A DNA stretch of 64,000 nucleotides, from the NCBI RefSeq assembly GCF_019336435.1, contig NZ_JAHWXQ010000002.1, positions 248,001 to 312,000 on the forward strand, written 5' to 3'. Every line of letters begins with the position of its first letter. Position 1 is the first letter of the stretch. This document shows positions 28,860-43,430 of this stretch, one piece after another. A program made the translations under genes and the position numbers. Below the pieces are notes generated by a model that did no database searches, had not been told where the DNA came from, and saw only the letters and a program-made list of their open reading frames with translations. Source of the stretch: Pontibacter populi. GTDB taxonomy: Bacteria > Bacteroidota > Bacteroidia > Cytophagales > Hymenobacteraceae.

Positions 28860-30617
28860 TTACTGTGCTAAATTATGCAGCACGTCTTCCCGTTCTAGCC
28901 ACTCCAGCCCATCAGGTAACTCTTTGCTATTAAACTCCAGATGAATTACACGTCGGTGCTTTTCGTTGAGTGTTTTCGAAGAGGCATGCAGAGTCAACGG
29001 TTTTAACAAGTGCACGCCACCTTTTAGCACTTTGCAGCTCTTGCTTTCAGCTGATTCTCTCAGTTCAGCAACCTCAGCATCTGAAAGGATACTAAAATGT
29101 GTTCTAGGTATTACTTTTAGGGCCCCGTTTTCTTCGTCTGTATTATCCAGATGTATGCGTAAGGTAAAAGCACTCTGCAGGTATTCTAGCGGTGGCCTTA
29201 CACTTACTAGTCCAGCCTTATTGGTCCAACTACTAAAACCATCTACTTCTTTTTTTTCGACTACATTGATCGGAACATCCTGGTGCCAGGTCACGTACCA
29301 ATTCGACTTTGGCGGCTTGTCAAAGTAAATGGCTTTGGTCAGGAAGTAGCCTTCCCCAAAACCTTCCCGGATGATCTTGCACAGGTTCTCGTTAAAAATA
29401 TGCTGCTTTAAGGTAGGGATCTCCTTGAGTAAACTTCTGATGGCAAACAGATCATCCGTTTTGCGAAAGCGTTCTTCGTTCTCTGTTGCCCTGGTGATCG
29501 TAGAAAGCATCTTCCCTACTTCTTTGCTCGTGTAGATGTTTTCCAGCACAGCGTAGCCCCTACGCTGTACTTTGGTTATGCTGTGACTAAGTTCTGTCAG
29601 GTTTAGCTCCTTTTCATACTGCTCTGCGGCATTGCACATTTTCTCATGAATCCTGCGCTTAAGCTTGTGAGGCTTTAGCACCTTCACGCAATCCCCAAAG
29701 CCTAATATCTCCCGTTCGAGCTCAAAGTTAAGTTGTACCTGCAGCCGCACAATAATGCCGTTACTGGTCCGCTCCATCAGTTGCTGGGAATGGTGCAGGG
29801 GTTTGGTAAGTACATAAGGGGCATTTTCCCGGTTAAAGTAGAGCTCTACTTCTTCAGGTTCTTCATACGGGTTTACCGATACGCCCAGGACATGCTTAAA
29901 ATAGTCTGCCAAGTTCAAGGTAGTATTCTCCAGGTAAGGCTCATGAGACTCCCCCACCTCCAGGATACGATCTAATGCCAGCACCAACACTGGTTGGCTA
30001 TTTTTCTTAATCCCTAATACAAACCAACGATTGCGATACTCTTTTAGCAGGTAAGGATGAAACGTGAAGGTTTGCGCCTCCCTAGCTTTAAAAGATTGAT
30101 ACGACAGCTGCACTGGGCGCTTTTTAATGATTGCCTGGTAAAGTGCATCGATGTGTTCCAGCCCTTTTAAGTGATCGTTCTTTTCCAAATCGATCACCGG
30201 TGCCTGCTTGGTCTTGGCCGTATGGATGCGGTCCTCCAAGCGCTGCACCATCCCATTGAGTTCATGGAAGTGCGTGAAGCCTTTGAACTGCCTTAAAATG
30301 TCTGCTACTTCGGTCAGTTTGCCTAGGTCCTGCTCTGTAAGGGGAATGTTGGTGATAGAATACTCCGGGTCCTCGTAGGCATAGTACTTCTTATCAATGA
30401 CAATGATCGGCGCGTTATAGCCCAGCTTATCGGAGCGCATCATCTGCAAATCCATCTGCACCGTACGCCGGCTCACCCCCTTGTCAATACCTTCGTACTC
30501 GTACAGGGCATCTGAGCAGGCATCGATCAAGTCCTCGAGCGTCCATTTTCTATACTTGTTGCGCAGGCAGTTATCGAGCGTGCGGTAACGGATCAGGGCG
30601 TTGCGGTTTACAGGCAT
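28860..30617 (-). CDS. WYL-domain regulator fused to a phytanoyl-CoA-hydroxylase-like dioxygenase
   Basis: 585 residues with an unusual fusion. Residues 1-70 form a winged-helix (SRRTVQMDLQMMRSD), ~158-225 are the WYL domain (PVQLSYQSF, PYLLKEYRNRWFVLGI) and ~253-335 the WCX extension. From about 345 the chain continues into a PhyH-type Fe(II)/2-oxoglutarate oxygenase: WHQD (H445, D447), distal H544 in LTLHASS and R555/R556 as the 2OG anchor. WYL domains sense ligands, often nucleic acid or nucleotides. It is divergent from the RNA-repair genes, and the spacer carries the operator-like TGCGCA pair, so it probably controls the island and itself. The oxygenase substrate is unknown. Confidence 0.85.
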   Translation of the reverse strand: MPVNRNALIRYRTLDNCLRNKYRKWTLEDLIDACSDALYEYEGIDKGVSRRTVQMDLQMMRSDKLGYNAPIIVIDKKYYAYEDPEYSITNIPLTEQDLGKLTEVADILRQFKGFTHFHELNGMVQRLEDRIHTAKTKQAPVIDLEKNDHLKGLEHIDALYQAIIKKRPVQLSYQSFKAREAQTFTFHPYLLKEYRNRWFVLGIKKNSQPVLVLALDRILEVGESHEPYLENTTLNLADYFKHVLGVSVNPYEEPEEVELYFNRENAPYVLTKPLHHSQQLMERTSNGIIVRLQVQLNFELEREILGFGDCVKVLKPHKLKRRIHEKMCNAAEQYEKELNLTELSHSITKVQRRGYAVLENIYTSKEVGKMLSTITRATENEERFRKTDDLFAIRSLLKEIPTLKQHIFNENLCKIIREGFGEGYFLTKAIYFDKPPKSNWYVTWHQDVPINVVEKKEVDGFSSWTNKAGLVSVRPPLEYLQSAFTLRIHLDNTDEENGALKVIPRTHFSILSDAEVAELRESAESKSCKVLKGGVHLLKPLTLHASSKTLNEKHRRVIHLEFNSKELPDGLEWLEREDVLHNLAQ

Positions 30618-30713: not shown

Positions 30714-31475
30714 ATGCAAGAACAGATACTACAAAAGCTAAGAGAGATTGAGGCACAATACAAAGTACAAATCCTACTTGCCTCAGAAACAGGCAGCCGG
30801 GCCTGGGGTTTTCCTTCGCCTGACAGCGACTACGATGTGCGCTTTATTTACCGCCACACCCGTGACTGGTACCTGAGCATAGACGAGCAGCGCGACACCA
30901 TTGAGTACTTAAGTGGAGATCTGGACCTGGTGGGCTGGGACATCCGCAAGTGCCTGCGCCTTTTGCGTAAATCTAACATTGCCATGTTCGAGCGCCTGTC
31001 TTCACCTATCGTGTACCTGGAGCAGACGGATCTCAGGAAACAATTGCAGAAACTCGCTTCTAATTATTTCTCCTGTCGTGCCGGGCTGCACCACTACGCC
31101 AGCATGGCCGGCAACTACTACAAGGCATGTGAAGCTGCTGATATGGTAAAGCTAAAGAGCTACTTCTACCTCTTGCGCACTACCCTGTGTAGTCTCTGGA
31201 TTGTGGAAAAGCAAAGCATACCGCCGTTGGCTTTCCAGAAGTTACTGCCTTTAGTAGAGAACCAAACATTAAGAACTAAGATAGAAGAATTGTTAATCCT
31301 TAAGGCACAGGTAGATGAAACATACCTGCACCCAAAGGAACTGGAACTAGAGCAATACCTGAAACGAATGCTTGATTACTGCGACACAAGGGCAATTGAA
31401 TTTGAAAAACATCAAGGCGAAACAGCGCCATTAAACCAACTATTTAGTGAAACGATAGCAAAGCCATGGCATTAA
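30714..31475 (+). CDS. RlaP-family nucleotidyltransferase (YcgL-like), copy 1
   Basis: 253 residues of the DNA-polymerase-beta-fold RlaP family, named for its association with RNA-repair pathways. The active site reads ETGSRAWGFPSPDSDYDVR: GS plus the D-x-D metal ligands, with a third acid in DLDLVGWDI. The rest is helical (SNYFSCRAGLHHYASMAGN is a family signature). It is the first gene after operator 1, and its last 10 bp overlap the next nucleotidyltransferase gene, so the two are co-translated. The likely job is adding nucleotides to RNA ends or otherwise modifying them; this has not been shown biochemically for this family as far as I know. Confidence 0.85.
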   Translation: MQEQILQKLREIEAQYKVQILLASETGSRAWGFPSPDSDYDVRFIYRHTRDWYLSIDEQRDTIEYLSGDLDLVGWDIRKCLRLLRKSNIAMFERLSSPIVYLEQTDLRKQLQKLASNYFSCRAGLHHYASMAGNYYKACEAADMVKLKSYFYLLRTTLCSLWIVEKQSIPPLAFQKLLPLVENQTLRTKIEELLILKAQVDETYLHPKELELEQYLKRMLDYCDTRAIEFEKHQGETAPLNQLFSETIAKPWH

Positions 31476-32530
31476 CGATAGATGATCTAAAGGCAAAGAA
31501 CCTGTTGCTGCTGGAGTGCATCAGCGGCAGCAGGGCCTATGGCCTGAGCACCCCTACGTCTGATACTGACATTCGCGGTGTATTTGTGCTTCCGGAGGAA
31601 GACTACTTTGGACTCAATTATGTAGAGCAAATCAGCAACGAGAGCAACGACGTGGTGTACTATGAGTTGAAGCGTTTCGTGGAGTTGCTATCTAAAAATA
31701 ACCCGAATATGCTCGAGTTGTTGGCTATGCCCGATGATTGTATTCGCTTTAAGCATCCGCTCTTCGACCGGTTCAAAACTGAAGCTTTTCTCTCAAAGCT
31801 TTGCAGGACCACCTTTGCTGGGTATGCGCTTGCGCAGGTAAAGAAGGCACGGGGACTAAAGAAAAAGATCGTGAATCCAGTAGAGCCGGAACGACGCTCG
31901 GTGCTGGACTTTTGCTACGTGGCGCAGGGACAAGGCTCAGTGCCGGTACAAGAGTTTCTGGCTCAACATAACTTGCGCCAGGAAGCGTGCGGGCTGACCA
32001 ACATCCCGCACATGCCCGATCTATATGCACTATTCCATGAGCCGAATGCCAAGCTCAAAGGTATTGTACAAAGCGAGAAGGCAAACGATGTGTCGCTGAG
32101 TTCTATACCCAAAGGGTTGCAGCCACTAGCGGTAATGAGCTTTAACAAGAATGCCTACTCTACCTACTGTAAAGAATACAAGGAGTACTGGGAATGGGTG
32201 GAAAAGCGCAACCAGACCCGATACGAGAATACGCTATCGCACGGTAAGAACTACGATGCCAAAAATCTGATGCACACCTTCCGCCTGCTTGATATGGCTG
32301 AAGAAATTGCTACGCAAAAGCAGATCATTGTGCGCCGGCCTAATCGGGAGTTCCTGTTACAAATCAAGGTCGGTGCATTTGAGTATGCCGAATTACTAGC
32401 AATAGCTGAAGAACGCATTGCCAAGATGGATGAACTGTATTGGACATCTGATCTGCCGGAAGAGCCAGACTTAGAGAAGTTAAATGAGCTGATGGTAGAG
32501 GTACGAAAAAAATTTTACAACAAAAATTAA
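31466..32530 (+). CDS. RlaP-family nucleotidyltransferase, copy 2
   Basis: 354 residues with the same polymerase-beta active site (ISGSRAYGLSTPTSDTDIRG) but longer and clearly diverged from the gene before it. It has an extra central segment (about 150-240) and a distinct helical C-terminus (HGKNYDAKNLMHTFRLLDMA, a hallmark of this subfamily). It overlaps copy 1 by 10 bp. Two different RlaP enzymes in tandem suggest different RNA or protein targets, or a heteromeric enzyme. The operator for the next transcription unit (rtcB) begins 1 bp after its stop codon. Confidence 0.85.
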   Translation: MALTIDDLKAKNLLLLECISGSRAYGLSTPTSDTDIRGVFVLPEEDYFGLNYVEQISNESNDVVYYELKRFVELLSKNNPNMLELLAMPDDCIRFKHPLFDRFKTEAFLSKLCRTTFAGYALAQVKKARGLKKKIVNPVEPERRSVLDFCYVAQGQGSVPVQEFLAQHNLRQEACGLTNIPHMPDLYALFHEPNAKLKGIVQSEKANDVSLSSIPKGLQPLAVMSFNKNAYSTYCKEYKEYWEWVEKRNQTRYENTLSHGKNYDAKNLMHTFRLLDMAEEIATQKQIIVRRPNREFLLQIKVGAFEYAELLAIAEERIAKMDELYWTSDLPEEPDLEKLNELMVEVRKKFYNKN

Positions 32531-32590: not shown

Positions 32591-34006
32591 ATGAACACAT
32601 TTACACTAACAGGAAAAGACTTATTGGAAATAGGCTATAAACCAGGCAAAGCCCTCGGTACGGCTTTGTCTATTATGGAAACAGCATATCCGGATTTATC
32701 AAAAGAAGAGCAGCTAACGAAACTAGCTACTATACTTGCCTCACCTGCTGATTACCAGCAGGACGAGCTATGGGCGCCAGTTGCTGAAGCCCTGGTACCA
32801 CCAAAGCAGGAAGAGCTGATTTCGCTATTGCCTGAAGCGAAGGAATATGTGATTTATGGGGCAGAAGGCATTGAAGTCGGTGCTATCAACCAGATGGATA
32901 CAGCCATGCGCCTGCCTGTTTCTGTTGGGGGAGCCCTGATGCCGGATGCGCACCAAGGCTATGGACTACCGATCGGTGGCGTGCTGGCTACAAAAGGTGC
33001 TGTAATTCCCTATGCAGTAGGGGTAGACATTGGGTGCCGTATGAGCATGAGCCTGTATGCCATTGATTCAGGTATTCTGACTACGCAGTCGGATCAGCTA
33101 AAGCGCATATTGCTTGACAATACTAGGTTCGGTACGGCTACCTTTAAAAACCCGAAAGATCATGCCATCATGGAGCGTCCTGAGTTCGCTGCCATACCTA
33201 TTGTAAGGAGCCTGAAAGACCGGGCCTATAGCCAGCTTGGATCTTCGGGAGGCGGTAATCACTTTGTAGAATTTGGGGTGGTAGAACTCCATAATGCGGA
33301 AAATGAGTTCGGACTGCCAGCAGGACAATACCTGTCGGCTCTCTCCCACTCCGGCTCCCGTGGTTTGGGTGCCAACATTGCAGGCCACTATACTAAGCTG
33401 GCGATGCAAAATTGTCGACTGCCTCAGGAGGCACGACACCTGGCATGGCTGGACCTTAAAACAGCCGAAGGGCAAGAGTACTGGCTGGCGATGAACCTGG
33501 CAGGTGATTATGCTTCAGCCTGTCATCACCAGATACATGAGCGCTTGGCTATAGCCTTGGGTGAGCAGCCACTGGCGGTAGTGGAGAACCACCACAACTT
33601 CGCCTGGAAGGAAAAAGATGCGCCAGGAAACGAGGTGATCGTGCACCGGAAGGGCGCTACACCGGCAGGTCAAGGGGTGCTGGGGATTATACCTGGCTCT
33701 ATGGCTACACCAGGTTTCATTGTGCGTGGTAAAGGTGAGGCAAACTCCCTGAACTCGGCTTCGCACGGAGCAGGCAGAGTCATGTCCAGAACTAAAGCCA
33801 AGCAAACGCTTTCGCTGCCACAGGTGCAGCAGTTCTTGCAAGAAGCAGGTGTGGAAGTGATCGGGTCAGGACTGGACGAAGCGCCTATGGTTTACAAGGA
33901 CATCCGCCAGGTGATGAACTCGCAGCAGGATCTTGTGGATGTAGTGGGAACCTTCACTCCAAAGATCGTCCGGATGTGTGGAGATGAGAAGTATATGAAG
34001 TATTAG
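32591..34006 (+). CDS. rtcB: RNA-splicing ligase RtcB
   Basis: 471 residues with all RtcB landmarks: GVDIGCRM (D146, C149), GGGNHFVE (H224), SHSGSRGLG (H253), ENHHNFAW (H334/H335), VHRKGATPAG and SHGAGR with H392, the residue that becomes guanylylated. RtcB uses GTP and Mn2+ to join an RNA 2',3'-cyclic phosphate or 3'-phosphate to a 5'-OH, the ends left by toxin and colicin-type RNases. It has its own copy of the shared operator/promoter. Neither an RtcA cyclase nor an archease gene accompanies it, and the sigma-54 regulator RtcR, usual in proteobacteria, is replaced here by the WYL-PhyH protein. Confidence 0.97.
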   Translation: MNTFTLTGKDLLEIGYKPGKALGTALSIMETAYPDLSKEEQLTKLATILASPADYQQDELWAPVAEALVPPKQEELISLLPEAKEYVIYGAEGIEVGAINQMDTAMRLPVSVGGALMPDAHQGYGLPIGGVLATKGAVIPYAVGVDIGCRMSMSLYAIDSGILTTQSDQLKRILLDNTRFGTATFKNPKDHAIMERPEFAAIPIVRSLKDRAYSQLGSSGGGNHFVEFGVVELHNAENEFGLPAGQYLSALSHSGSRGLGANIAGHYTKLAMQNCRLPQEARHLAWLDLKTAEGQEYWLAMNLAGDYASACHHQIHERLAIALGEQPLAVVENHHNFAWKEKDAPGNEVIVHRKGATPAGQGVLGIIPGSMATPGFIVRGKGEANSLNSASHGAGRVMSRTKAKQTLSLPQVQQFLQEAGVEVIGSGLDEAPMVYKDIRQVMNSQQDLVDVVGTFTPKIVRMCGDEKYMKY

Positions 34007-34153: not shown

Positions 34154-37144
34154 TTGGCGCTAACAACTGAAGAGATTATAGCTACCTGGAATGGAGCACT
34201 TCAAATTAAAGGAGAAGAATATGACAAAAATGGAAACGTCGTTAGTGCAGGACTTAGAACACCACAGATTGGCGCTTATTATAGTGCTTTAGCACATTGG
34301 ACTATATCTAAGCGTCATGCAATAATTGTTATGCCAACTGGTACAGGTAAAACTGATACAATGGTAACATTAATGGTCGGTAACTTAATGGACAAGTTAC
34401 TAATTATTGTTCCTTCAAAAGCACTACGTGAACAAATAGGTGAGAGAATAAGTAAATTTGGAGTTCTTTCAGAACTAGGCTGTATTTCTGAATCAGCCAC
34501 TCCACCTAGAATTGGTTATCTTAAAAAAGGTTTGAAGACACTTTCTGATATAGAGGAGTTCTTCACCAAGTTTAATGTTATTATAGCAACAGCTTCAATA
34601 TTTAGGAACTTTCCCAATGGTCATTTAATTAAAGTAGCTTCATTATGTAGCCACCTTTTTCTTGATGAAGCCCATCACTCACAAGCTCCCAAAACATGGA
34701 TGAAAATCCAAAAGGCTTTTCAGAATAAGCCAGCTCTTCTTTTTACAGCTACACCATACCGTAATGACGAACTGAAATTAGATGGAGTAGAAATTTATAA
34801 CTACCCACTGTCAAAAGCACAAAGAGAAGGATATTTTACGGAGATCGAGCAACACCCAATTTATGAAGATAACCTAAAACTGGCAGATGAAGCCATTGCG
34901 AAAAAAGCAGTTGAGTTATTAGAAAAAGATCATAAAACATTTCCAAAGCACTTGCTGATGGCACGAGCAAATTCTATTGCAAGAGCTGAAGAGATATTTA
35001 CAATATATCACAAATTTTATCCTCAGTATAATCCCGTACTTGTACATTCTAATCTTCCAGAAAAGAAGAGAAAGGAGCTTCAATTACAGTTTGAAAATGG
35101 CGAGTCTAAAATTGCTGTTTGCGTTGACATGTTCGGCGAGGGTTATGATTTGCCAGAGATAAAAATAGGCGCATTTCATGACATGAGGCGAAATATCACT
35201 ACAGCCCTTCAACTTATTGGTAGATTTACAAGAACAAAAAAAGGTCTAGGTAAGGCTAAATTTGTTTTTAATGCAGCTGAAGAGCAAGCAGCTAAGGAAA
35301 TACAAAAATTACTTGGTGAAGATGCGAATTGGAACATATTAATTCCTAATTTGACTGAAGGTAAAAGCAGAAAAGAACAAGAGCTGAGTACTTTTGTTAA
35401 GTCTTTTAATCTTCCAACTAAACTACCTGTTCAAAATTTAAGACCTGCTCTAAGTCTAGTTGTGTATAAGTCAGCTCAAGACTTTTGGACTCCAGAGAAA
35501 TTCAGAGAACACTTCAATTCTAAAAATTTATTTCATATAAACGATTTAAGTAACAAGAAAAACACTCTCATTATTGTTACTGCAGAAAAAATACAGCTAG
35601 ACTGGATGAAGAGCCAAGAGTATTTTAATATTGAACACCATCTATATGTTGTTCATTGGCTGAAAAAGGAAAAACTGTTGCTGATTCATAGTTCCAAAAC
35701 AAATGGCAATTATTATAAAGGTTTAGCGAAAGCCTTAATTGGTAACGACTGCAGATTGGTTAACGGCGAAAATGTGTATAGAGCCTTACAAGGTATAGAG
35801 CGGCTTAAATTCCATGGCGTGGGTCTTCAGGAGCCTCATGGAACAAGCGTATCTTATGTTCAAAGAGCTGGTAAAAATGTTGTATTAGGTACATCTGCTT
35901 CTGATTTATTAAATCGCTCCAAAAGACTACTTCAAGGCTCTGGTTATAAAAATGGTGATCAGACAAACTTTGGAGTATCAAGTAAAGGTAGGATTTGGTC
36001 TCTACAGAGGGAGAATATTGTTGACTTGATTTCTTGGGGTAATGAAATAGCTTTAAAAATTACTGATAGCTCGATAGATACCAGTAGCTTTATAAATCAT
36101 GTAGCTTTTCCTCAACTCATTGAGAAAAGACCGCAAGTTAGACCATTCTTTATTGAGTGGAACTCATCTCTTTACTCAACAACATACCTTAAATTCTCAA
36201 TATCAACCCTTAGCGACAAGTTCTACTATATACCAAACCTTGACCTTCAACTCCACAACCCTTCATCAAATGGTAATCTGAGTTTTAAAATAGCTACCAA
36301 TGACTTCGTATCTCATTATGAACTTAGAATTAACAAGGGGCAGCAGTTTGAAATAGAACATGTAGGCGGACCTTCCCTTTATTTTCATGATCCCAGTAGA
36401 AAATCTTTAACAGAGTGGTTAACTGAAAACCCTCCTACAATATATTTTATTGATGGGTCATATCTTTTTGATGGAAATAGCTATGTGAAGCTTGGTCAAA
36501 AATTAAGACAATTCGATTTTGATAAGATTCGAACTATTGATTGGAAGACAAATGGTGTTAATATCAGGCGAGAATCAAAGGGGTTTGAAAATCCTGAAAA
36601 AACATCAATTCAGTTCTTTTTAATAGAAAATCTTAAACAGAAGGACTCTAATTATGATTTAATTTTTAATGATGATGATAAAGAGGAAACTGCAGACATA
36701 GTTACAGCCAAAATTAATGATCAAACAAACCAAATCTTTATTGAGTTGTACCATTGCAAGTATTCATCAGAAGATAATGAAGGCTGCAGAGTTGGCGATC
36801 TGTATGAAGTATTGGGACAAGCTCAAAAAAATATAAGGTGGCTCGACGACAGTTACTCGTTCTTCCAAAGATTAATTAGTAGAGAAAACTCCCTTATTAA
36901 TAAAAACTCTAAGCTCACAAGGATTGAAAAAGGTGATTTGGCACTGCTTAGGTCGTTATCAAATAAAGCAAGAAGAGATTACCAAATCCTTATAAAAGTA
37001 TTTGCTGTACAGCCTGGAATGTCTAAATCTAAATTTCTTAAGAGGTCCGAAGATAGTAATGAAGTAGAAAGATTATTTGCTGTGACTGAAGATTACATAA
37101 AAGCTACGAAACAAGGCGACTTTTTTGTTATATGCAGTTCCTAA
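34154..37144 (+). CDS. DEAD/DEAH-box SF2 helicase with C-terminal extension
   Basis: 996 residues. Walker A PTGTGKT (61-67), DEAH (171-174), LFTATPYR and motif VI QLIGRFTR (353-360) define an SF2 core. The C-terminal ~600 residues include a conserved-looking patch near 870-905 (IELYHCKYS...DLYEVLGQAQKNIRW) seen in defence-type helicases, possibly a degenerate nuclease. The start is TTG at 34154, as no ATG lies upstream in frame. The gene is far more AT-rich than rtcB and the Ro gene on each side, lacks the TGCGCA operator in front and ends just before operator 3. It therefore looks like an insertion into the RNA-repair locus. Confidence 0.82.
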   Translation: MALTTEEIIATWNGALQIKGEEYDKNGNVVSAGLRTPQIGAYYSALAHWTISKRHAIIVMPTGTGKTDTMVTLMVGNLMDKLLIIVPSKALREQIGERISKFGVLSELGCISESATPPRIGYLKKGLKTLSDIEEFFTKFNVIIATASIFRNFPNGHLIKVASLCSHLFLDEAHHSQAPKTWMKIQKAFQNKPALLFTATPYRNDELKLDGVEIYNYPLSKAQREGYFTEIEQHPIYEDNLKLADEAIAKKAVELLEKDHKTFPKHLLMARANSIARAEEIFTIYHKFYPQYNPVLVHSNLPEKKRKELQLQFENGESKIAVCVDMFGEGYDLPEIKIGAFHDMRRNITTALQLIGRFTRTKKGLGKAKFVFNAAEEQAAKEIQKLLGEDANWNILIPNLTEGKSRKEQELSTFVKSFNLPTKLPVQNLRPALSLVVYKSAQDFWTPEKFREHFNSKNLFHINDLSNKKNTLIIVTAEKIQLDWMKSQEYFNIEHHLYVVHWLKKEKLLLIHSSKTNGNYYKGLAKALIGNDCRLVNGENVYRALQGIERLKFHGVGLQEPHGTSVSYVQRAGKNVVLGTSASDLLNRSKRLLQGSGYKNGDQTNFGVSSKGRIWSLQRENIVDLISWGNEIALKITDSSIDTSSFINHVAFPQLIEKRPQVRPFFIEWNSSLYSTTYLKFSISTLSDKFYYIPNLDLQLHNPSSNGNLSFKIATNDFVSHYELRINKGQQFEIEHVGGPSLYFHDPSRKSLTEWLTENPPTIYFIDGSYLFDGNSYVKLGQKLRQFDFDKIRTIDWKTNGVNIRRESKGFENPEKTSIQFFLIENLKQKDSNYDLIFNDDDKEETADIVTAKINDQTNQIFIELYHCKYSSEDNEGCRVGDLYEVLGQAQKNIRWLDDSYSFFQRLISRENSLINKNSKLTRIEKGDLALLRSLSNKARRDYQILIKVFAVQPGMSKSKFLKRSEDSNEVERLFAVTEDYIKATKQGDFFVICSS

Positions 37145-37241: not shown

Positions 37242-38759
37242 ATGAAGTTCAACATTCTCACTTCCAAAAAGCACCAGACCACGAACCACGAAGGAGCGCT
37301 GGCCTGGAAAATAGGTCCAGCCGCCGAGCTGTATGCAGCTGTTGTAACAGCCTCGCTGAGCGACAAATTCTACGAGAACGGAAACCAGCGCCTGGAACGT
37401 ATCCGGGAGCTGATCGCGCAGAACGACCCGGTATTTGTGGCGAAGCTGGCCATGTATGCCCGCACGCAAATGCACCTGCGCAGTGTGCCGTTGGTGTTGC
37501 TGGTGGAACTGGCGAAAGTGCACTCCGGCGATGACCTGGTGAGCCGCACTGTGGCCGGTGTGGTACAGCGTGCCGATGAGATCACAGAGCTGCTGGCCTA
37601 CTACAGCCTGAGCAACGGTCGCACCGGCACTAAGAAGCTGGGCCGCCTCTCCAAGCAACTGCAGAAAGGACTGGCCCTAGCCTTCAATCGATTTGATGAG
37701 TACCAGTTCGCCAAGTATAATCGGGCCACAGAGGTAAAGCTGCGCGATGCGCTGTTCCTGGTGCACCCGAAGTCTAAAGACGAAACGCAGCGGGCGCTCT
37801 TCGATAAGATTGCCACCGATACACTGGCTATACCTTATACCTGGGAGACCAAACTGTCGGAGCTGGGGCAGCAGGCTTTTGAAAACGCAGAAGCCAAAGC
37901 GGCAGCGGTACGAGCCAAGTGGGAGGAGCTGATCGATAGCGGCAGGCTAGGCTACATGGCTCTGCTACGCAACCTGCGTAACATCCTGCAGGCAGAGGTG
38001 TCAGCTGTGCACATGCAACGCGTATGTGCCATACTCTCTGATGCACGCGCTGTGCAGAAGGCAAAGCAGATGCCGTTCCGCTACCAGTCCGCTTACCGGG
38101 AATTGCTGCAGCTAAAGTCCGGCTATACTGCCATGGTGCTTGATGCGCTGGAGCAAGCCGTGCAGGTGAGCGTACAGAACATGCAGGGCTTCGATGAGAC
38201 AGTTCGTGTGGTGGTTGCCTGTGATGTGTCAGGCTCCATGCAACGCCCGATCTCCGCCAGAAGTAAAGTGCTGAACTACGACATCGGTTTGATGCTGGGT
38301 ATGCTCCTGCAGCACCGCTGCCATAACGTGGTAACAGGAATGTTCGGCGACAGCTGGAAGGTAATCAACCTACCACAACGCCAGGTGCTATCCAATGTGC
38401 AGGAGTTCTACCGCCGCGAAGGCGAAGTAGGTTATTCGACCAACGGGTACCTGGTGATCCGTGACCTGATCAAGCGCCGGGTGCAGGCCGATAAAGTGAT
38501 GCTATTCACCGATTGCCAGCTTTGGGACAATACCTGCTATAACCAGAGCATAAGTGAGGAATGGAAGAAGTACAAACCTATTGCACCCAATGCCAGACTC
38601 TACCTTTTCGACCTTGCAGGCTACGGCAACTCACCACTCAACCTGGTGCGGGACGATGTATTTTTGATCGCTGGCTGGAGCGATAAAGTGTTTGATGTAC
38701 TGGAAGCTATCGAGAACGGTAGTACAGCCTTAACAGCTATTGAGGCGATGGAATTATAA
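37242..38759 (+). CDS. rsr: Ro60/Rsr ortholog, TROVE + von Willebrand A domain
   Basis: 505 residues. The N-terminal HEAT-like TROVE ring (about 1-320) shows the typical AKLAMYARTQMHLRSVPLVL and LGYMALLRNLRNIL helices. The C-terminal vWA domain has an intact MIDAS, ACDVSGSM (D328, S330, S332). Ro proteins form a ring that binds Y RNAs on the outside and misfolded RNA ends in the central hole, and in bacteria they work with PNPase and RNA ligases. The first Y-RNA-like stem begins 7 bp after the stop codon, so protein and RNAs are on one transcript. It is driven by operator 3. Confidence 0.95.
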   Translation: MKFNILTSKKHQTTNHEGALAWKIGPAAELYAAVVTASLSDKFYENGNQRLERIRELIAQNDPVFVAKLAMYARTQMHLRSVPLVLLVELAKVHSGDDLVSRTVAGVVQRADEITELLAYYSLSNGRTGTKKLGRLSKQLQKGLALAFNRFDEYQFAKYNRATEVKLRDALFLVHPKSKDETQRALFDKIATDTLAIPYTWETKLSELGQQAFENAEAKAAAVRAKWEELIDSGRLGYMALLRNLRNILQAEVSAVHMQRVCAILSDARAVQKAKQMPFRYQSAYRELLQLKSGYTAMVLDALEQAVQVSVQNMQGFDETVRVVVACDVSGSMQRPISARSKVLNYDIGLMLGMLLQHRCHNVVTGMFGDSWKVINLPQRQVLSNVQEFYRREGEVGYSTNGYLVIRDLIKRRVQADKVMLFTDCQLWDNTCYNQSISEEWKKYKPIAPNARLYLFDLAGYGNSPLNLVRDDVFLIAGWSDKVFDVLEAIENGSTALTAIEAMEL

Positions 38760-38766
38760 AACAAGT

Positions 38767-38879
38767 ACAGGAGGTGCCGTAAGTGCGTGATACTTCGTGG
38801 TGTAGTCCTTTGGGACGAGCAGGTTCGAGCCCTGCACGCTGCCTGCAGCGTAAGCACGTGCTGCCTTTCGCCCTCCTGT
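38767..38879 (+). ncRNA. Y-RNA-like RNA, unit 1
   Basis: 113 nt closed by a perfect outer stem ACAGGAGG (38767-38774) / CCTCCTGT (38872-38879). Inside lie the shared 5' box TGCCGTA, an 8-bp inner stem AGTGCGTG / CACGTGCT (two G-T pairs), the shared TACTTCG, a T-arm mimic GCAGG-TTCGAGC-CCTGC, an acceptor-like hairpin ACGCTG-CCTG-CAGCGT and the 3' box TTTCGCC. No D-arm is visible, so the tRNA-like module is partial. Ends are inferred from pairing, not from transcript data. Confidence 0.8.
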
Positions 38880-38893
38880 TTCTTTAAAAAATT

Positions 38894-39038
38894 TGAGCGG
38901 TGCCGTAGGTCGGAGTTACTTCGATTTGGGTTCGGATGCTGCAGGTTCGACTCCTGCTTTACGCTTCCTACTCGGGAGCGGAAATGGTGTAAATGGCAAC
39001 ACGTCAAAAAAGCACTCCGGCTGCCTGTCGCCCGCTCA
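38894..39038 (+). ncRNA. Y-RNA-like RNA, unit 2 (full tRNA-like module)
   Basis: 145 nt: outer stem TGAGCGG (38894-38900) / CCGCTCA (39032-39038), 5' box TGCCGTA, inner stem GTCGGAGT / ACTCCGGC, TACTTCG and T-arm GCAGG-TTCGACT-CCTGC. Then come an acceptor mimic closed by a loop (CGCTTCC-TACTC-GGGAGCG), a D-arm (GTG-TAAATGGCAA-CAC) and the 3' box TGTCGCC. The order T-arm, acceptor, D-arm is a circular permutation of tRNA, as known for YrlA-type bacterial Y RNAs. Confidence 0.85.
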
Positions 39039-39050
39039 TTATTAAATTTG

Positions 39051-39186
39051 AAAGTTGTGCCGTAGATACGGGTTACTTCGTGTGTCGCAGGTTCGATTCC
39101 TGCCAGCGCCTTGAGGTGCTGTAGCTCAGCTGGTAGAGCAACGCCTTGTAAAAGGTTTAAGTCCCTTATCGCCTGTCGCCCACTTT
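39051..39186 (+). ncRNA. Y-RNA-like RNA, unit 3 (tRNA-Thr-like permuted module)
   Basis: 136 nt: outer stem AAAGTTG / CCACTTT (one mismatch), 5' box TGCCGTA, inner stem GATACGGG / CCCTTATC (one mismatch), TACTTCG, T-arm GCAGG-TTCGATT-CCTGC, acceptor CAGCGCC-TTGA-GGTGCTG, D-arm GCTCAGCTGGTAGAGC and 3' box TGTCGCC. After the D-arm it continues with ACGCCTTGTAAAAGG, which looks like an anticodon arm with TGT (Thr). It may be miscalled as a tRNA or pseudo-tRNA by annotation tools. Confidence 0.85.
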
Positions 39187-39199
39187 TATTAGTAAGGTA

Positions 39200-39267
39200 T
39201 AGAGTGCCGTTAAATGGAGATACTTCGCCTGTCACGCAAAACCAGCTCCATTTGCTCATCGCCTCTA
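39200..39267 (+). ncRNA. Y-RNA-like RNA, unit 4 (minimal, no tRNA-like module)
   Basis: 68 nt: outer stem TAGAG / CTCTA, 5' box TGCCGTT, perfect inner stem AAATGGAG (39212-39219) / CTCCATTT (39246-39253), TACTTCG in the apical loop, and 3' box CATCGCC. It keeps every element shared by the other four units but lacks T-arm, acceptor and D-arm, so it is a pure Ro-binding-type stem-loop. Confidence 0.75.
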
Positions 39268-39275
39268 GACTAACT

Positions 39276-39404
39276 GGAACAGGTGCCGTAGGCAAGCGTT
39301 ACTTCGACTTTTAACCGGCTGGTCGCGGGTTCGACTCCCGCCACTCCTTGGAGTGTAGCTCAGTGGTAGAGCAGCATGTCGCTAGCCGTTTGTCGCCCTG
39401 CTCC
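39276..39404 (+). ncRNA. Y-RNA-like RNA, unit 5 (full tRNA-like module)
   Basis: 129 nt: outer stem GGAACAGG / CCTGCTCC (one mismatch), 5' box TGCCGTA, inner stem GGCAAGCG / CGCTAGCC (one mismatch), TACTTCG, T-arm GCGGG-TTCGACT-CCCGC, acceptor mimic CACTCC-TT-GGAGTG, D-arm TAGCTCAGTGGTAGAGCA and 3' box TGTCGCC. It is followed by TTTTTA (39405-39410), so the outer stem may also act as a terminator or processing signal. Confidence 0.85.
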
Positions 39405-39410
39405 TTTTTA

Positions 39411-39458
39411 TTACCCTGTAGATGCCTGTGGCTAATATGCCATGGGTGTCTCGGGTAA
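39411..39458 (+). other. Structured leader hairpin between Y RNA array and hen1
   Basis: Outer stem TTACCC / GGGTAA (39411-39416 / 39453-39458) and inner stem CCTGTGGC / GCCATGGG (two G-T pairs) around loop TAATAT, with an internal loop between. It resembles the Y RNA two-stem plan but lacks the TGCCGTA and TACTTCG boxes. It could be a sixth, degenerate unit or an RNA-level switch for hen1-pnkp. Confidence 0.45.
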
Positions 39459-39507
39459 AAAGCTTATATTGAATTTTGTGCATGTTTGAAGAAGAAACAC
39501 AAACCAC

Positions 39508-40884
39508 ATGATATTAGAAATTACTACCACGCACCAACCTGCCACGGACCTGGGGTACCTGCTGCACAAGCATCCGGACAAGGTGCAGTCGGTAGAACTG
39601 GCAGCGGGAAAAGCCCATATCTTTTATACCGAAGCGACAGCTGAACGCTGCACCGCCTGTCTGATGCTCGACATCAATCCGGTGGACCTGGTACGGGTGC
39701 GAAAAGGAAATTATGCCCTGCAGGACCAGTACGTAAACGACAGGCCCTACACCACTAACTCCTTTTTGAGCACTGCCATTGCCAAAGCATTTGGCTCTGC
39801 CCTCAACGGCCGCTGCAACCCAAGGCCGGAGCTGCCGGAAACGTCGATGCCCTTTTCCTGTAAGCTCACTTCATTACGTGTGGATGCAGAATTGGAGACC
39901 GTAGAACGACTGTTTCTGCCGCTGGGCTATGCACTGGAAATAGAAACCATCCCCTTAGACCCCGCTTTTCCTGGTTGGGGGCTGAGTAAGTATACTAATT
40001 TAACTTTGAGTAAAACCTGCACCTTGCAGGAGTTACTTTCGCACCTGTACGTGCTGATCCCGGTGCTCGACAACAGCCGCCATAGCTGGGTGGCCCAGCA
40101 CGACATTGAGATCCTGATGCAGAAAGGACAGGGCTGGCTCGAACAACATCCGGAGCGCGACTGGATCACCAGACGCTTCCTGCGCAACATCCGCACCATT
40201 ACAAGCGAAGCCATCCTGCGTTTGGCCGGTGAAGATGCCTTACCGCCTGAAGAAGACGAATCGCCGCTGCAAGAAAGCCTGCACCAGCAGCGCCTGAACC
40301 GGGCTTTCGAACGGCTACGTGAAAGTGGTGCCACAAAGGTACTGGACCTGGGCTGTGGCTCTGGCAAGCTATTAAAGCTACTTCTAAAAGAAGGGCAGTT
40401 CCGGAAGATCACCGGTATGGATGTTTCATTTTCAGAGCTACAACTGGCAAAAGAGAACCTGTATCTGGACGAAGCCTCCCCTGCCCTACGCCAACGTCTC
40501 TCGCTTTTTCAAGGGTCAGTTACCTACCTGGACGAACGGATGAAAGGCTATGATGCTGTTGCACTGGTTGAAGTGATCGAGCACCTGGATGAAGTAAGAC
40601 TGCCAGCCATGGAGAAAGTGGTCTTTGGTTATGCAGCACCGGAAACAGTCGTGCTCTCTACACCTAACGCAGAGTACAATGTCGTTTACAAGCGGCTAGA
40701 TCCGGAAGCCTTCCGGCACGAAGACCACCGTTTTGAGTGGACACGGCAGCAATTTAGAAACTGGTGTGATACCGTTGGCGAACGCTTTGGCTATGAGGTG
40801 CGCATTGAGTCGGTAGGTCAAGAAGAACCTAATATAGGTGCACCTTCCCAGCTGGCTGTATTTAAAAATAAATTAACCCTATGA
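39508..40884 (+). CDS. hen1: 3'-terminal RNA ribose 2'-O-methyltransferase Hen1
   Basis: 458 residues: an N-terminal Hen1-specific domain (1-250; ERCTACLMLDINPVDLVRV, YTTNSFLSTAIAKAFG) and a C-terminal methyltransferase. The SAM motif is VLDLGCGSGK (278-287). The Mn-binding set specific to Hen1 is present as E355 and E358-H359 (VEVIEHLDE) plus H404/H407 (RHEDHRFEW). Bacterial Hen1 methylates the 2'-OH at the break before Pnkp seals it, so the same site cannot be cut again. Its stop overlaps the pnkp start (ATGA, 4 bp), and Hen1 and Pnkp are known to work as one complex. Confidence 0.96.
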   Translation: MILEITTTHQPATDLGYLLHKHPDKVQSVELAAGKAHIFYTEATAERCTACLMLDINPVDLVRVRKGNYALQDQYVNDRPYTTNSFLSTAIAKAFGSALNGRCNPRPELPETSMPFSCKLTSLRVDAELETVERLFLPLGYALEIETIPLDPAFPGWGLSKYTNLTLSKTCTLQELLSHLYVLIPVLDNSRHSWVAQHDIEILMQKGQGWLEQHPERDWITRRFLRNIRTITSEAILRLAGEDALPPEEDESPLQESLHQQRLNRAFERLRESGATKVLDLGCGSGKLLKLLLKEGQFRKITGMDVSFSELQLAKENLYLDEASPALRQRLSLFQGSVTYLDERMKGYDAVALVEVIEHLDEVRLPAMEKVVFGYAAPETVVLSTPNAEYNVVYKRLDPEAFRHEDHRFEWTRQQFRNWCDTVGERFGYEVRIESVGQEEPNIGAPSQLAVFKNKLTL

Positions 40885-43430
40885 AAGAAATAGAATTACC
40901 GGAACTGGCCTTGGTGCTGCTGGTGGGGCCAAGCAGCTCCGGCAAAAGCACATTCGCGCGTAAATACTTTTTAGGAACCGAAGTAATCTCTTCTGACTAC
41001 TGCCGCGCGCTGGTTTCAGATGATGAGAACAACCTGGATGCCACCAGCGATGCTTTTGATGTGCTGAACTTCTTAGCTGCCAAGCGCCTGAAGCGGGGGA
41101 AGCTAACGGTAATCGATGCGCTTAACCTGCACAAAGAAGACCGGGCTAAGCTCGTGCAACTGGCAAAAGAAAATTACGCCCTGGCTGCTGCCATTGTGCT
41201 GGACACGCCGATCCGCAAGCTGCATGAACGTCATGAGCTTCGAACAGACCGGAACTTTGGCCGGCAAGTGATCGAGAAGCAGTATGATAACTACAAGCGC
41301 ACACTAAAGTCAATCAAGCGCGAAGGCTTTGGCTATACCTATGTGGTGAACCCGGAAGAAGAGCTGCAGATCGTGCGTCAGCCGCTTTGGAATAACAAAC
41401 AGCAGGAAACGGGACCTTTTGATATTATCGGGGATGTGCACGGCTGCTTTGACGAGCTGCTGGAACTCCTGACAACCCTGGGCTATAGTATAAACCTAAA
41501 GCAGGAAGAGGCTTTTGAAGTGCAAGCTCCGCACGGCAGAAAAGTGATTTTCCTGGGAGACCTGACAGACCGCGGGCCAAAGTCACCTGAAGTGCTGCGC
41601 CTAGTAATGGATATGGTTAACGCCGGGCAGGCGCTTTGCATCCGGGGCAACCACGACGATAAACTCTTGCGCTACCTGCAGGGCAAGAATGTGAACCTGG
41701 ACCATGGGCTGGACAAGACCGTGCAGCAGTTGGCTGCCACATCTTCTGAATTCAAAAAAGAAGTAGAAGCTTTCCTGGATAGTCTAATTGCGCATTATGT
41801 GTTGGATGCCGGAAAGCTGGTGGTAGCCCATGCTGGCTTGCCGGAAGAAATGCACGGTAGAGCCGCATCTGCTGTCAGGGCTTTCTGTCTTTACGGGGAG
41901 ACTACCGGAGAAGTAGATGAATTCGGATTGCCGGTGCGCCACGACTGGGCTAAAAACTACCGGGGCAAAGCCATGGTGGTCTATGGGCATACGCCAGTAC
42001 CCGGCATTGATTGGCTCAACAACACACTGAACGTAGACACAGGGTGCGTGTTCGGTGGCCGGTTGACCGCCCTGCGCTACCCGGAGCGGGAGACGGTTTC
42101 CGTGGACAGTAAAGCAGTTTACAGTGAGCCAGTAAGGCCAATTTTAGCTGATAATATAGCAGCTATAACAGCTCAGCAGGAACAGGACGATATGCTCGAT
42201 ACAAGCATGATCCGGGACAAGTACATCGTTGATACCAGTGTAGGCAAGCGCGTCATTATTCGGGAGGAAAATGCTGTAGCAGCCCTTGAGGTGATGAGCC
42301 GGTTTGCAATAGACCCGAAATGGCTCTTATACTTGCCTCCAACAATGTCGCCACCGGAGACCAGCGCCCTGCCCGATTACCTGGAGCACCCGCTGGAAGT
42401 GTTCAGCTATTACCGCAAAAATGGTGTTCGAAACCTGGTCTGCGAAGAAAAGCACATGGGATCTAGGGCAATTGCTGTTATCTGCAAATATCCAGAAGTA
42501 GCCGTTACACGCTTTGGCATGCAATCCCCTGCCCCAGGTATTATCTATACCCGCACAGGGCGCAGGTTCTTTAGCGATGCAGCCACCGAGTCGGATTTCC
42601 TGGATGTGTTGAACAAAGCACTGACGGCCGCAAACTTCTGGGAACACTTTGACACCGACTGGATATGCCTGGATGGGGAACTACTTCCTTGGTCTTCGAA
42701 AGCCAAAGACCTGATCGTAAACCAGTATGCAGCCGTAGGCGCTTCTGCTTCCAATGGCCTGGCCAGAACGGCCGAGGTATTGCAGCAGGCAAAAGCTCGA
42801 AAGCTGCCGGTAGATAATATGCTTGAAGAGGTACAGCAACGTGCACAGGCAATCGACAAATACATCGCTTCCTACCATAACTATACACGGGAGACGGAAG
42901 GCATTAAAGGCTTGTCTTTTGCTCCTTTTCATATCCTGGCCACAGAAGGCAAGGTGCACGTGAGTCAGGCGCATACCTGGCACATGGAGCAGGTAAAAAA
43001 AATCTGCCGGCAGGATGAGCAGTACTTGCTCATGACCTCGCTACGCTTTGTGGATTTGGAAGATGAAGCCAGTGTTACGGAAGCTGTGAACTGGTGGACG
43101 GAACTGACTGCTACTGGCGGCGAAGGCATGGTCGTTAAACCGCTTGAGTTTATACCTACACCTAAAGACAAACTGATTCAGCCAGCCATGAAGTGCCGTG
43201 GCAGCGAGTACCTGCGCATCATCTATGGCCCGGAGTACGATCTTGGCGAAAACCTGGTGAGGTTAAAGCAACGGAACGTAAAGGCAAAGCGGGAACTGGC
43301 CTTGCAGGAGTTTTCGCTGGGTATAGAGGCATTGGAACGGTTCGTGCGAAAAGAGCCCCTGCGGCGCGTCCACGAATGCGTGTTCGGGGTGCTGGCACTG
43401 GAGAGTGAGGCCGTGGATCCAAGGTTATAA
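40881..43430 (+). CDS. pnkp: Polynucleotide kinase-phosphatase-ligase Pnkp
   Basis: 849 residues in three modules. The kinase (1-170) has P-loop GPSSSGKS (16-23). The metallophosphatase (about 180-400) has GDVHG (184-188), GDLTDRG (226-232), GNHDD and VVAHAG. The ligase-like adenylyltransferase (about 480-849) has motif I EEKHMGSR with K524. It phosphorylates the 5'-OH, removes 2',3'-cyclic phosphate and, with Hen1, seals the RNA. It is the last gene of the Ro operon, overlapping hen1 by 4 bp. All three active sites are intact. Confidence 0.96.
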   Translation: MKEIELPELALVLLVGPSSSGKSTFARKYFLGTEVISSDYCRALVSDDENNLDATSDAFDVLNFLAAKRLKRGKLTVIDALNLHKEDRAKLVQLAKENYALAAAIVLDTPIRKLHERHELRTDRNFGRQVIEKQYDNYKRTLKSIKREGFGYTYVVNPEEELQIVRQPLWNNKQQETGPFDIIGDVHGCFDELLELLTTLGYSINLKQEEAFEVQAPHGRKVIFLGDLTDRGPKSPEVLRLVMDMVNAGQALCIRGNHDDKLLRYLQGKNVNLDHGLDKTVQQLAATSSEFKKEVEAFLDSLIAHYVLDAGKLVVAHAGLPEEMHGRAASAVRAFCLYGETTGEVDEFGLPVRHDWAKNYRGKAMVVYGHTPVPGIDWLNNTLNVDTGCVFGGRLTALRYPERETVSVDSKAVYSEPVRPILADNIAAITAQQEQDDMLDTSMIRDKYIVDTSVGKRVIIREENAVAALEVMSRFAIDPKWLLYLPPTMSPPETSALPDYLEHPLEVFSYYRKNGVRNLVCEEKHMGSRAIAVICKYPEVAVTRFGMQSPAPGIIYTRTGRRFFSDAATESDFLDVLNKALTAANFWEHFDTDWICLDGELLPWSSKAKDLIVNQYAAVGASASNGLARTAEVLQQAKARKLPVDNMLEEVQQRAQAIDKYIASYHNYTRETEGIKGLSFAPFHILATEGKVHVSQAHTWHMEQVKKICRQDEQYLLMTSLRFVDLEDEASVTEAVNWWTELTATGGEGMVVKPLEFIPTPKDKLIQPAMKCRGSEYLRIIYGPEYDLGENLVRLKQRNVKAKRELALQEFSLGIEALERFVRKEPLRRVHECVFGVLALESEAVDPRL

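Follow-up and report, generated by a model that had tools for sequence, protein, structure and literature searches.

An RNA-repair operon of Pontibacter with five putative Y RNAs behind Ro60, two with a predicted complete circularly permuted tRNA

The window (the whole 64-kb stretch of Pontibacter DNA that was analyzed) encodes on its forward strand, in this order, two RNA repair pathway nucleotidyltransferases (RlaP), the RNA ligase RtcB, a helicase, Ro60, an array of five Y RNA-like units, Hen1 and Pnkp (Table 1). An RNA ligase and end-healing enzymes (RtcB, RlaP in two copies, Hen1, Pnkp) therefore adjoin Ro60, which is the arrangement expected of an RNA-repair operon. The Ro60 gene was the sole reading frame found when the genome was searched for TROVE; the vWA-like domain of its product matches Pfam vWA_Ro60 with 24.1 bits, slightly under the cut-off of 27.7. 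The locus shares the association of Ro60, Y RNAs and RtcB with rsr-yrlBA-rtcBA of Salmonella and similar operons, as these are described in the available part of the source (PMC7790460). It differs from the Salmonella operon in holding five Y units instead of two and in the addition of RlaP, Hen1 and Pnkp, whereas neither RtcA nor RtcR was detected among the eight proteins of the window that were scanned with Pfam.

Three further features of the neighborhood were observed. The helicase between RtcB and Ro60 (34154-37144, 996 aa) has no relative at E 1e-10 within the covered stretches of the 80 Ro60 loci surveyed below, and this slot of the operon therefore seems to be variable. Divergently from the repair operon, a WYL/WCX regulator fused to a PhyH dioxygenase-like domain is encoded at 28860-30617, and a relative of this protein is found by tblastn upstream of the Ro60 stop codon in 45 of the 80 loci. 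Finally, a strong hairpin lies between unit 5 and Hen1 (39404-39462), which is kept with changed sequence in five other Pontibacter and is possibly a processing site, a leader or a terminator.

Table 1. Features of the repair operon and of its Y RNA-like array (positions in the window, except for the last row)
Feature	Position	Strand	Basis and remarks
Two RlaP genes	30714..32530	+	Pfam RlaP E 6.2e-77, 5.2e-26
RtcB RNA ligase gene	32591..34006	+	Pfam RtcB E 2.8e-83
Ro60/Rsr gene	37242..38759	+	TROVE plus vWA-like domain, 505 aa; Pfam TROVE E 2e-27
Y unit 1	38767-38879	+	unit scan; T-arm, without D-arm
Unit 1, outer stem	38767-38774/38872-38879	+	
Unit 1, hairpin	38805-38816	+	
Unit 1, T-arm	38819-38835	+	
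Unit 1, acceptor-like hairpin	38836-38851	+	
Y unit 2	38894-39038	+	unit scan; orthologues in five named Pontibacter genomes
Unit 2 head, predicted complete permuted tRNA	38922..39005	+	R1 46.6 bits (training member)
Unit 2, anticodon arm	38922-38934	+	CGA TTTGGGT TCG
Unit 2, positions 42-43	38935-38936	+	
Unit 2, variable loop	38937-38940	+	
Unit 2, T-arm	38941-38957	+	
Unit 2, acceptor and closing loop	38958-38984	+	
Unit 2, D-arm	from 38987	+	
Unit 2, positions 26-28	39003-39005	+	
Y unit 3	39051-39186	+	YrlA-like permuted tRNA without anticodon loop
Unit 3, T-arm	39087-39103	+	
Unit 3, acceptor hairpin	39104-39121	+	
Unit 3, D-arm	39124-39139	+	
Unit 3, after the D-arm		+	short CGT/ACG stem, then 3'-side hairpin CCTTGTAAAAGG
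Y unit 4	39197-39270	+	short, without tRNA-like module
Y unit 5	39277-39403	+	unit scan; orthologues in five named Pontibacter genomes
Unit 5 head, predicted complete permuted tRNA	39305..39375	+	R1 76.3 bits (training member)
Unit 5, anticodon arm	39305-39317	+	CGA CTTTTAA CCG
Unit 5, positions 42-43	39318-39319	+	
Unit 5, variable loop	39320-39324	+	
Unit 5, T-arm	39325-39341	+	
Unit 5, acceptor hairpin	39342-39355	+	
Unit 5, D-arm	39358-39372	+	
Unit 5, positions 26-28	39373-39375	+	
Hen1 gene	39508..40884	+	Pfam Hen1_L E 1.2e-100
Pnkp gene	40881..43430	+	kinase-like, phosphoesterase and ligase domains; Pfam PNKP_ligase E 5e-173, AAA_33, Metallophos
L007, IS4/5-type transposase frames	349-1109 of L007	minus	DUF4096, DDE_Tnp_1; between array units 2 and 3

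The array starts 7 bases past the stop codon of Ro60, i.e., in the direct neighborhood of a TROVE protein that is typical of Y RNA genes. Its five units follow a common plan (outer stem, TGCCGT, inner stem, TACTTCG, head, TCGCC, outer stem), and in each of them the ends pair in a stem that carries the conserved boxes, as in Y RNAs. An earlier note on this DNA had proposed five Y RNA-like units in the Ro operon, and all five are present with the boxes and stems that it described. They are also back to back as claimed, but the consecutive gaps measure 14, 12, 10 and 6 bases, which corrects the range of 8-14 bp to 6-14. In the 64-kb window, the unit scan finds these five on the Ro60 strand and none on the other, and neither ARAGORN nor Rfam at its gathering score makes a call in the array. 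A search for Y units elsewhere in the genome returned the five array boxes and five others; the control with a reversed pattern gave nine.

The units differ in their heads. Those of units 2, 3 and 5 contain T-arm, closed acceptor hairpin and D-arm in the circularly permuted order of YrlA, in agreement with the earlier reading, and this tRNA-like domain is absent from units 1 and 4. Unit 1 is partial, as had been noted, with a T-arm and an acceptor-like hairpin and the D-arm missing, and unit 4 has neither T-arm nor acceptor hairpin. In five named Pontibacter genomes the five boxes occur in the same order as in the window (the unit scan itself missed unit 2 of L014), and the order of types, i.e., T-arm, permuted, permuted, short, permuted, is identical in all six genomes. 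The array had been described as a graded loss of tRNA mimicry; this description finds no support, given that the five other Pontibacter keep the order of types and that T-arm-only and short units recur elsewhere.

The stems in which the earlier note saw evidence of RNA function indeed show compensatory changes between orthologues in the six genomes. Double changes that preserve pairing affect four pairs each in units 1, 2, 3 and 5 and one pair in unit 4, and they reach the outer stems of units 1, 2 and 4. Unit 1 has one doubly changed pair in each of its outer, inner, hairpin and acceptor-like stems, unit 3 has three in the acceptor and one in the inner stem, and in unit 4 the single double change falls into the outer stem, with 48 of 48 cells of the inner stem paired. 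In unit 5, the pairs 27 and 28 are both doubly changed; its outer stem is AACAGG with CCTGCT in the window and CCTGTT in L014 and L015. Broken cells are found in the inner stem and acceptor of unit 2 (31/36 and 35/42 paired), the acceptor of unit 5 (26/30) and the 3' hairpin of unit 3 (13/22). In L007, a Pontibacter relative, units 1 and 2 are followed by a transposase and then by the boxes of units 3 and 4, which reach to the end of the stretch. Another locus, L013 (G032:C1:2616857-2617126), holds a Ro60-like frame with matching first 90 residues and two stop codons, and is likely to be a degenerate copy from the same genus.

The proposed likeness to YrlA was borne out in part by the covariance model of this family (RF02553): unit 5 (E 7.8e-10, 49.4 bits) and unit 3 (E 5e-9, 46.7 bits) match, but both stay below the gathering threshold of 69 bits, and for units 1, 2 and 4 no match is listed up to E 1. 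The gathering score is a strict test here, because the YrlA matches in non-Bacteroidota comparison loci, ten of which were listed, likewise score less than 69 bits (best 68.8). Members of the family, such as Salmonella YrlA, lie beside Ro60 as the units here do, and the Rfam consensus has the same T-arm, closed acceptor hairpin and D-arm in permuted order, following an ACUACG stretch; it is, however, without an anticodon arm. The permuted order is hence already known from the Rfam consensus, as are two Y RNAs per operon from Salmonella, according to the portion of the source at hand (PMC7790460).

An anticodon arm, which the earlier note missed, is predicted from the sequence for units 2 and 5. 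In unit 2, positions 27-28 pair as UC/GA, a reading that needs a variable loop of 4 nt, whereas unit 5 pairs GC/GC at these positions and has the anticodon UUU and one A-C mismatch in the stem. After reordering of the pieces, ARAGORN calls unit 2 as tRNA-Pro(tgg) and unit 5 as tRNA-Lys(ttt). The D-arm of unit 2 is identical to tRNA-Gln of its own genome in 18 of 19 positions and its 3' half is closest to Tyr and Pro; an assignment to Gln throughout was rejected, since the likeness is confined to the D-arm. For unit 5, several tRNAs tie in the D-arm, so that this arm does not single out an isoacceptor. The anticodon arm of unit 5 is retained across genomes though its anticodon changes, from UUU in the window and L017 to GUU in L018, GCA in L014 and GCG in L015 and L016, and consequently no single isoacceptor is conserved. 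Unit 2 has an anticodon stretch of standard length in just three of the six genomes (the window, L016 and L018); the other three (L014, L015, L017) have a shorter segment of different shape ahead of the T-arm.

For a broader view, the best 80 of 446 Ro60 relatives were surveyed with their surroundings (998,598 bases), all from Bacteroidota except two metagenome-assembled genomes labeled Limnohabitans (L062) and Williamsia (L068); as the closest relatives of this Ro60, they form a non-random sample. Using rules that were tuned on the same loci and a box pattern that also admits the form TGTCGT, the unit scan found 328 units on the Ro60 strand versus 5 on the opposite strand. This bias, together with the covariation of stems between orthologues, makes an origin of the units by chance very unlikely. 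Nearly all (312 of 328) lie within 3.5 kb downstream of the Ro60 stop codon, a distance that 72 of the 80 loci cover in full. Within it, no unit was counted in 3 loci, one in 6, two in 5, three in 19, four in 11, five in 24, six in 10, seven in 1 and eight in 1. At least three units are thus present in 66 of 80 loci, and the array of five, which in the earlier note looked undescribed, is ordinary as such and no rarity: 24 related loci have exactly five and 36 have five or more. Of 59 relatives from the same genus and order, just 11 gave a Ro60 match. One or more of RtcB, RlaP, Hen1 and Pnkp are encoded in 43 of the 80 loci. Over these loci, no association with full units was seen for RtcB (p 1.0), RlaP (p 0.24 and 0.27) or Pnkp (p 0.09), and the link with Hen1 is weak (p 0.045, 8 loci, uncorrected).

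The anticodon arm recurs in this larger set. Among 333 units (window included), 108 have both T-arm and D-arm; 17 of them were dropped because their acceptor could not be placed, and the remaining 91 form 4-7 of 7 acceptor pairs each. In 66 of the 91, the 17-19 nt before the T-arm divide into a loop of 7 nt, 5 nt and a variable loop of 5 nt. Although the positions of the anticodon loop took no part in the selection of these 66 units, 63 of them have T at position 33 and 64 have a purine at position 37. The anticodon stem appears to be split, with positions 27-28 contributed by the strand that follows the D-arm and 29-31 by the end of the conserved ACTTCG motif. With the post-D-arm strand, 27-43 and 28-42 pair in 64 of 66 units each (28.3 and 26.6 expected; five pair types), and 30-40 (21; expected 21.1) and 31-39 (38; expected 37.9) are at chance. 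The exact break point may vary, since 29-41 also pairs with this strand in 37 units (20.8 expected). The inner pairs 29-31/39-41 change with the length of the stretch, being TCG/CGA at 17 nt (11/17), CGA/TCG at 18 (17/36) and GCA/CGC or GCA/TGC at 19 (8/13). All three form in 35 of 66 units and at least two in 54; 31 units miss one or more. When the 3' strands were shuffled 2,000 times over all units, full stems averaged 11.8 and reached 22 at most, a test whose force lies mainly in the comparison across length classes because the motif is nearly constant within one class. Registers shifted by 1-3 gave 0-10 full inner stems. Covariation extends to the tertiary Levitt pair 15-48 of tRNA, with G-C in 72 and A-T in 15 of the 91 units and four departures. 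Kinship was controlled for by taking the first unit of each of 25 genus-level groups, which were assigned by record title: U33, R37, 27-43 and 28-42 are present in all 25, 30-40 in 24, 31-39 and Levitt 15-48 in 23 each, and 29-41 in 17.

Once reordered, 64 of the 66 units, among them units 2 and 5, are read as tRNAs by ARAGORN, as would be expected of permuted tRNA genes, versus 4 of 66 in native order and a mean of 18.9 (range 11-26, 20 repeats) when halves were swapped between units. Among the 64 calls, four have an undetermined anticodon, one is UUA and one UCA; the commonest triplets are UUU (15/66) and GUU (8/66), each of which occurs in 4 of the 25 groups. An alignment (A1) was made of 54 of the 66 units, with 12 left out by hand as near-duplicates or ill-fitting, including the two that ARAGORN did not call. 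In A1, 95.7% of cells are paired versus 67.3 after shuffling, and covariation is 0.741 versus 0.200 (at most 0.155 when slid). Double changes occur in 19 of 22 pairs versus 15.0 shuffled; the excess of further pair types is weaker (61 versus 55.9, reached by 9 of 500 shuffles). In the counts for the 66 units, the 25 groups and A1, the variable loop of unit 2 and of its orthologues is taken as 5 nt, which shifts their anticodon loop by one, versus 4 nt in the reading by hand and in R1.

R1 is a covariance model built from A1, with units 2 and 5 in its training set and unit 3 outside it. On the 64-kb window, it scores unit 5 with 76.3, unit 3 with 61.5 and unit 2 with 46.6 bits and matches nothing else up to E 1. 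It is useless for mapping distribution over whole genomes, because real tRNA genes that lie next to each other match too: all 395 of 395 genomes have a match, and in the genome of the window three matches to tRNA pairs were compared with its tRNA list. Ten Ro60 loci came from plasmid and phage records, one of them (L137) a Bacteroides phage. R1 exceeds 50 bits in 6 of these 10, namely in Shinella (80.8), Rhizobium (74.6), Novosphingobium (65.8), Rhizobium phage (64.4 and 53.5), Deinococcus gobiensis (64.1) and Brevundimonas phage (53.8), and the other four have no match above 50 bits. By eye, Shinella and Rhizobium have complete anticodon stems of 5 bp, and the remaining matches show unusual loops or mismatches. 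Where the YrlA model is aligned to Shinella (L139) and Novosphingobium (L140), the anticodon arm or its remains appear as a lower-case insert, which suggests that the Rfam model puts an informative part of some members into an insert. In the literature covered, to which the primary Y RNA papers do not belong, no anticodon arm was mentioned for any Y RNA, and the available text of a review names D, T and acceptor arms as the likeness of YrlA to tRNA (PMC8394870).

From the sequence, the conserved order of the units, their covariation, the tRNA geometry and the operon context, we infer that this stretch encodes five putative Y RNAs that would bind Ro60, and that those from units 2 and 5 would carry whole permuted tRNAs and recruit tRNA-acting enzymes, an interpretation that we consider fairly probable. 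The tRNA of units 2 and 5 would be permuted at the junction of positions 28 and 29, its acceptor end being closed and its anticodon loop preserved; unit 3 would represent the plain YrlA form, unit 1 only T-arm and acceptor-like hairpins, and unit 4 a bare loop. Ro60 might grip the stem that is common to all units, and each head might then serve as a separate handle. A tRNA that cannot be charged and lacks a free acceptor end, with elbow and anticodon loop on show, could draw tRNA-acting enzymes to the Ro60 ring, foremost those for repair that the operon itself encodes (RtcB, Pnkp-Hen1, RlaP) and perhaps an anticodon-loop nuclease. Such a handle for tRNA-acting enzymes, most likely those of repair, is proposed on the basis of the head geometry and of published roles of Ro60 and Y RNAs: in the accessible parts of these sources, Y RNA tethers the bacterial Ro60 of Deinococcus to PNPase (PMC7790460), YrlA is modified by TruB and DusA (PMC8394870), and Ro60 with a tRNA-like partner is called a platform for RNA repair (PMC7824862). 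Several findings speak against this reading: the inner anticodon stem is incomplete in 31 of the 66 units, the arm of unit 2 is confined to three of six genomes, repair genes are not enriched at loci with full units apart from the weak link with Hen1, and YrlA of Salmonella escapes cleavage by the anticodon nuclease (PMC7790460). The partner of Ro60-Y RNA could also be PNPase or another factor.

The main rival is that the heads are decoys, which bait, titrate or sense anticodon nucleases and whose anticodons shift in an arms race. Intact anticodon loops within an RNA-repair operon and the switching anticodon of unit 5 within Pontibacter would suit this role, as would the predominance of UUU and GUU, although 7 of the 15 UUU units come from the single genus Flavobacterium. 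Hughes et al. envision YrlA as a competitive inhibitor (PMC7790460). Yet a decoy made in few copies per Ro60 would probably soon be saturated, and short and T-arm-only units would be unable to act in this way; we regard decoys as rather unlikely.

Circularly permuted tRNA genes of algae and archaea have the 3' half before the 5' half, and the same order is found in these units. If the units were precursors of this kind, they would be turned into functional tRNAs by RtcB, which is encoded in the window, or by the repair enzymes, and the ARAGORN calls after reordering would fit. In the units, however, the break lies at 28/29, the Y RNA stem is inserted there, the acceptor ends are closed by a tight loop, and maturation to tRNA has left no sign. 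The acceptor loops are very short, with nothing beyond the 7+7 nt in 9 of 66 units and NCCA next in 3 of 66; some triplets are stop codons (UUA, UCA); the genome already has normal Lys(UUU) and Pro(UGG) tRNAs; and the remainder of each unit is a conserved Y scaffold, all of which makes such precursors highly improbable. Two-piece tmRNA, as far as it is described in the text available (PMC3978253), is likewise a bacterial RNA gene with a permuted tRNA-like part, but the units here are tied to Ro60, and ARAGORN calls no tmRNA. Least credible of all are functionless pieces of tandem tRNA genes caught behind Ro60, which could arise easily, given that R1 matches the 3' half of a real tRNA gene with the next 5' half, but which would hardly keep their order in six genomes with compensatory changes or share stems and boxes with units that lack tRNA parts. 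As to origin, we guess that the permuted pieces could have been captured from the stretch between neighboring tRNA genes, since R1 also matches such pairs.

With regard to the recruitment of tRNA-acting enzymes by the heads, the question addressed is the purpose of tRNA-like heads in bacterial Y RNAs. If most Y RNAs of Bacteroidota with T-arm and D-arm carry a full tRNA, their target would read the whole tRNA; the anticodon loop would then be the obvious element to mutate, and the RNA-repair setting supplies concrete candidates. As a more tentative extension, Ro60 Y RNA arrays may be fast-changing display libraries of whole tRNAs with readable anticodon loops (including an initiator copy), heads with a bare T-arm and, as seen in certain species, a segment of 23S rRNA (helix 69-71), each of which would be displayed on Ro60 as bait or jig for toxins that cut such RNAs and for enzymes that repair them.

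Several other head types were seen in the surveyed loci. Y-box units of five loci have a head that starts like 23S rRNA (CCTAAGGTAGC; L039 10854-10886, L046 5186, L062 9004, L077 12555, L091 4897). The stretch in L039, which we take to lie around helices 69-71, agrees with Pontibacter 23S rRNA (L181) in 32 of 33 bases. Compared with 200 shuffles, the heads of L046 and L062 score above the best and those of L077 and L091 just equal it; Rfam named no rRNA at the 23S-like heads of the four loci scanned, and a common type was dismissed, since none of 395 genomes of the phylum contains the exact pattern. L039 also has a unit (10555-10649) with a CAU loop and the D-arm GGAGCAATTGGTAGCTCG, similar to the tRNA-Met of the window genome in L108, which is presumably a permuted initiator tRNA. 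In another recurrent type (by rule 42 of 333 units; L034 8304, L037 7751, L043 7759, L069 7641, L049 7609 and others), GGGG/CCCC closes the head, which has an inner hairpin plus either a T-arm or a T-loop; such heads resemble a tRNA attached via its acceptor stem, and some have the loop UGCAAAU. T-arm heads without D-arm, to which unit 1 of the window may belong, are found in L066 (7945), L089 (8633) and L070 (8339), and in the latter two a hairpin immediately precedes the T-arm and resembles the variable and T arms of class II tRNAs. In Xanthocytophaga (L046 3581-9056), real tRNA genes are interleaved with Y units near Ro60, which could be a setting for the capture of tRNA pieces. Finally, permuted-tRNA-like heads in L049 (8038), L070 (8036) and L076 (7976) have the T-loop UAAAAAU instead of UUCRANN and keep U54 and A58.
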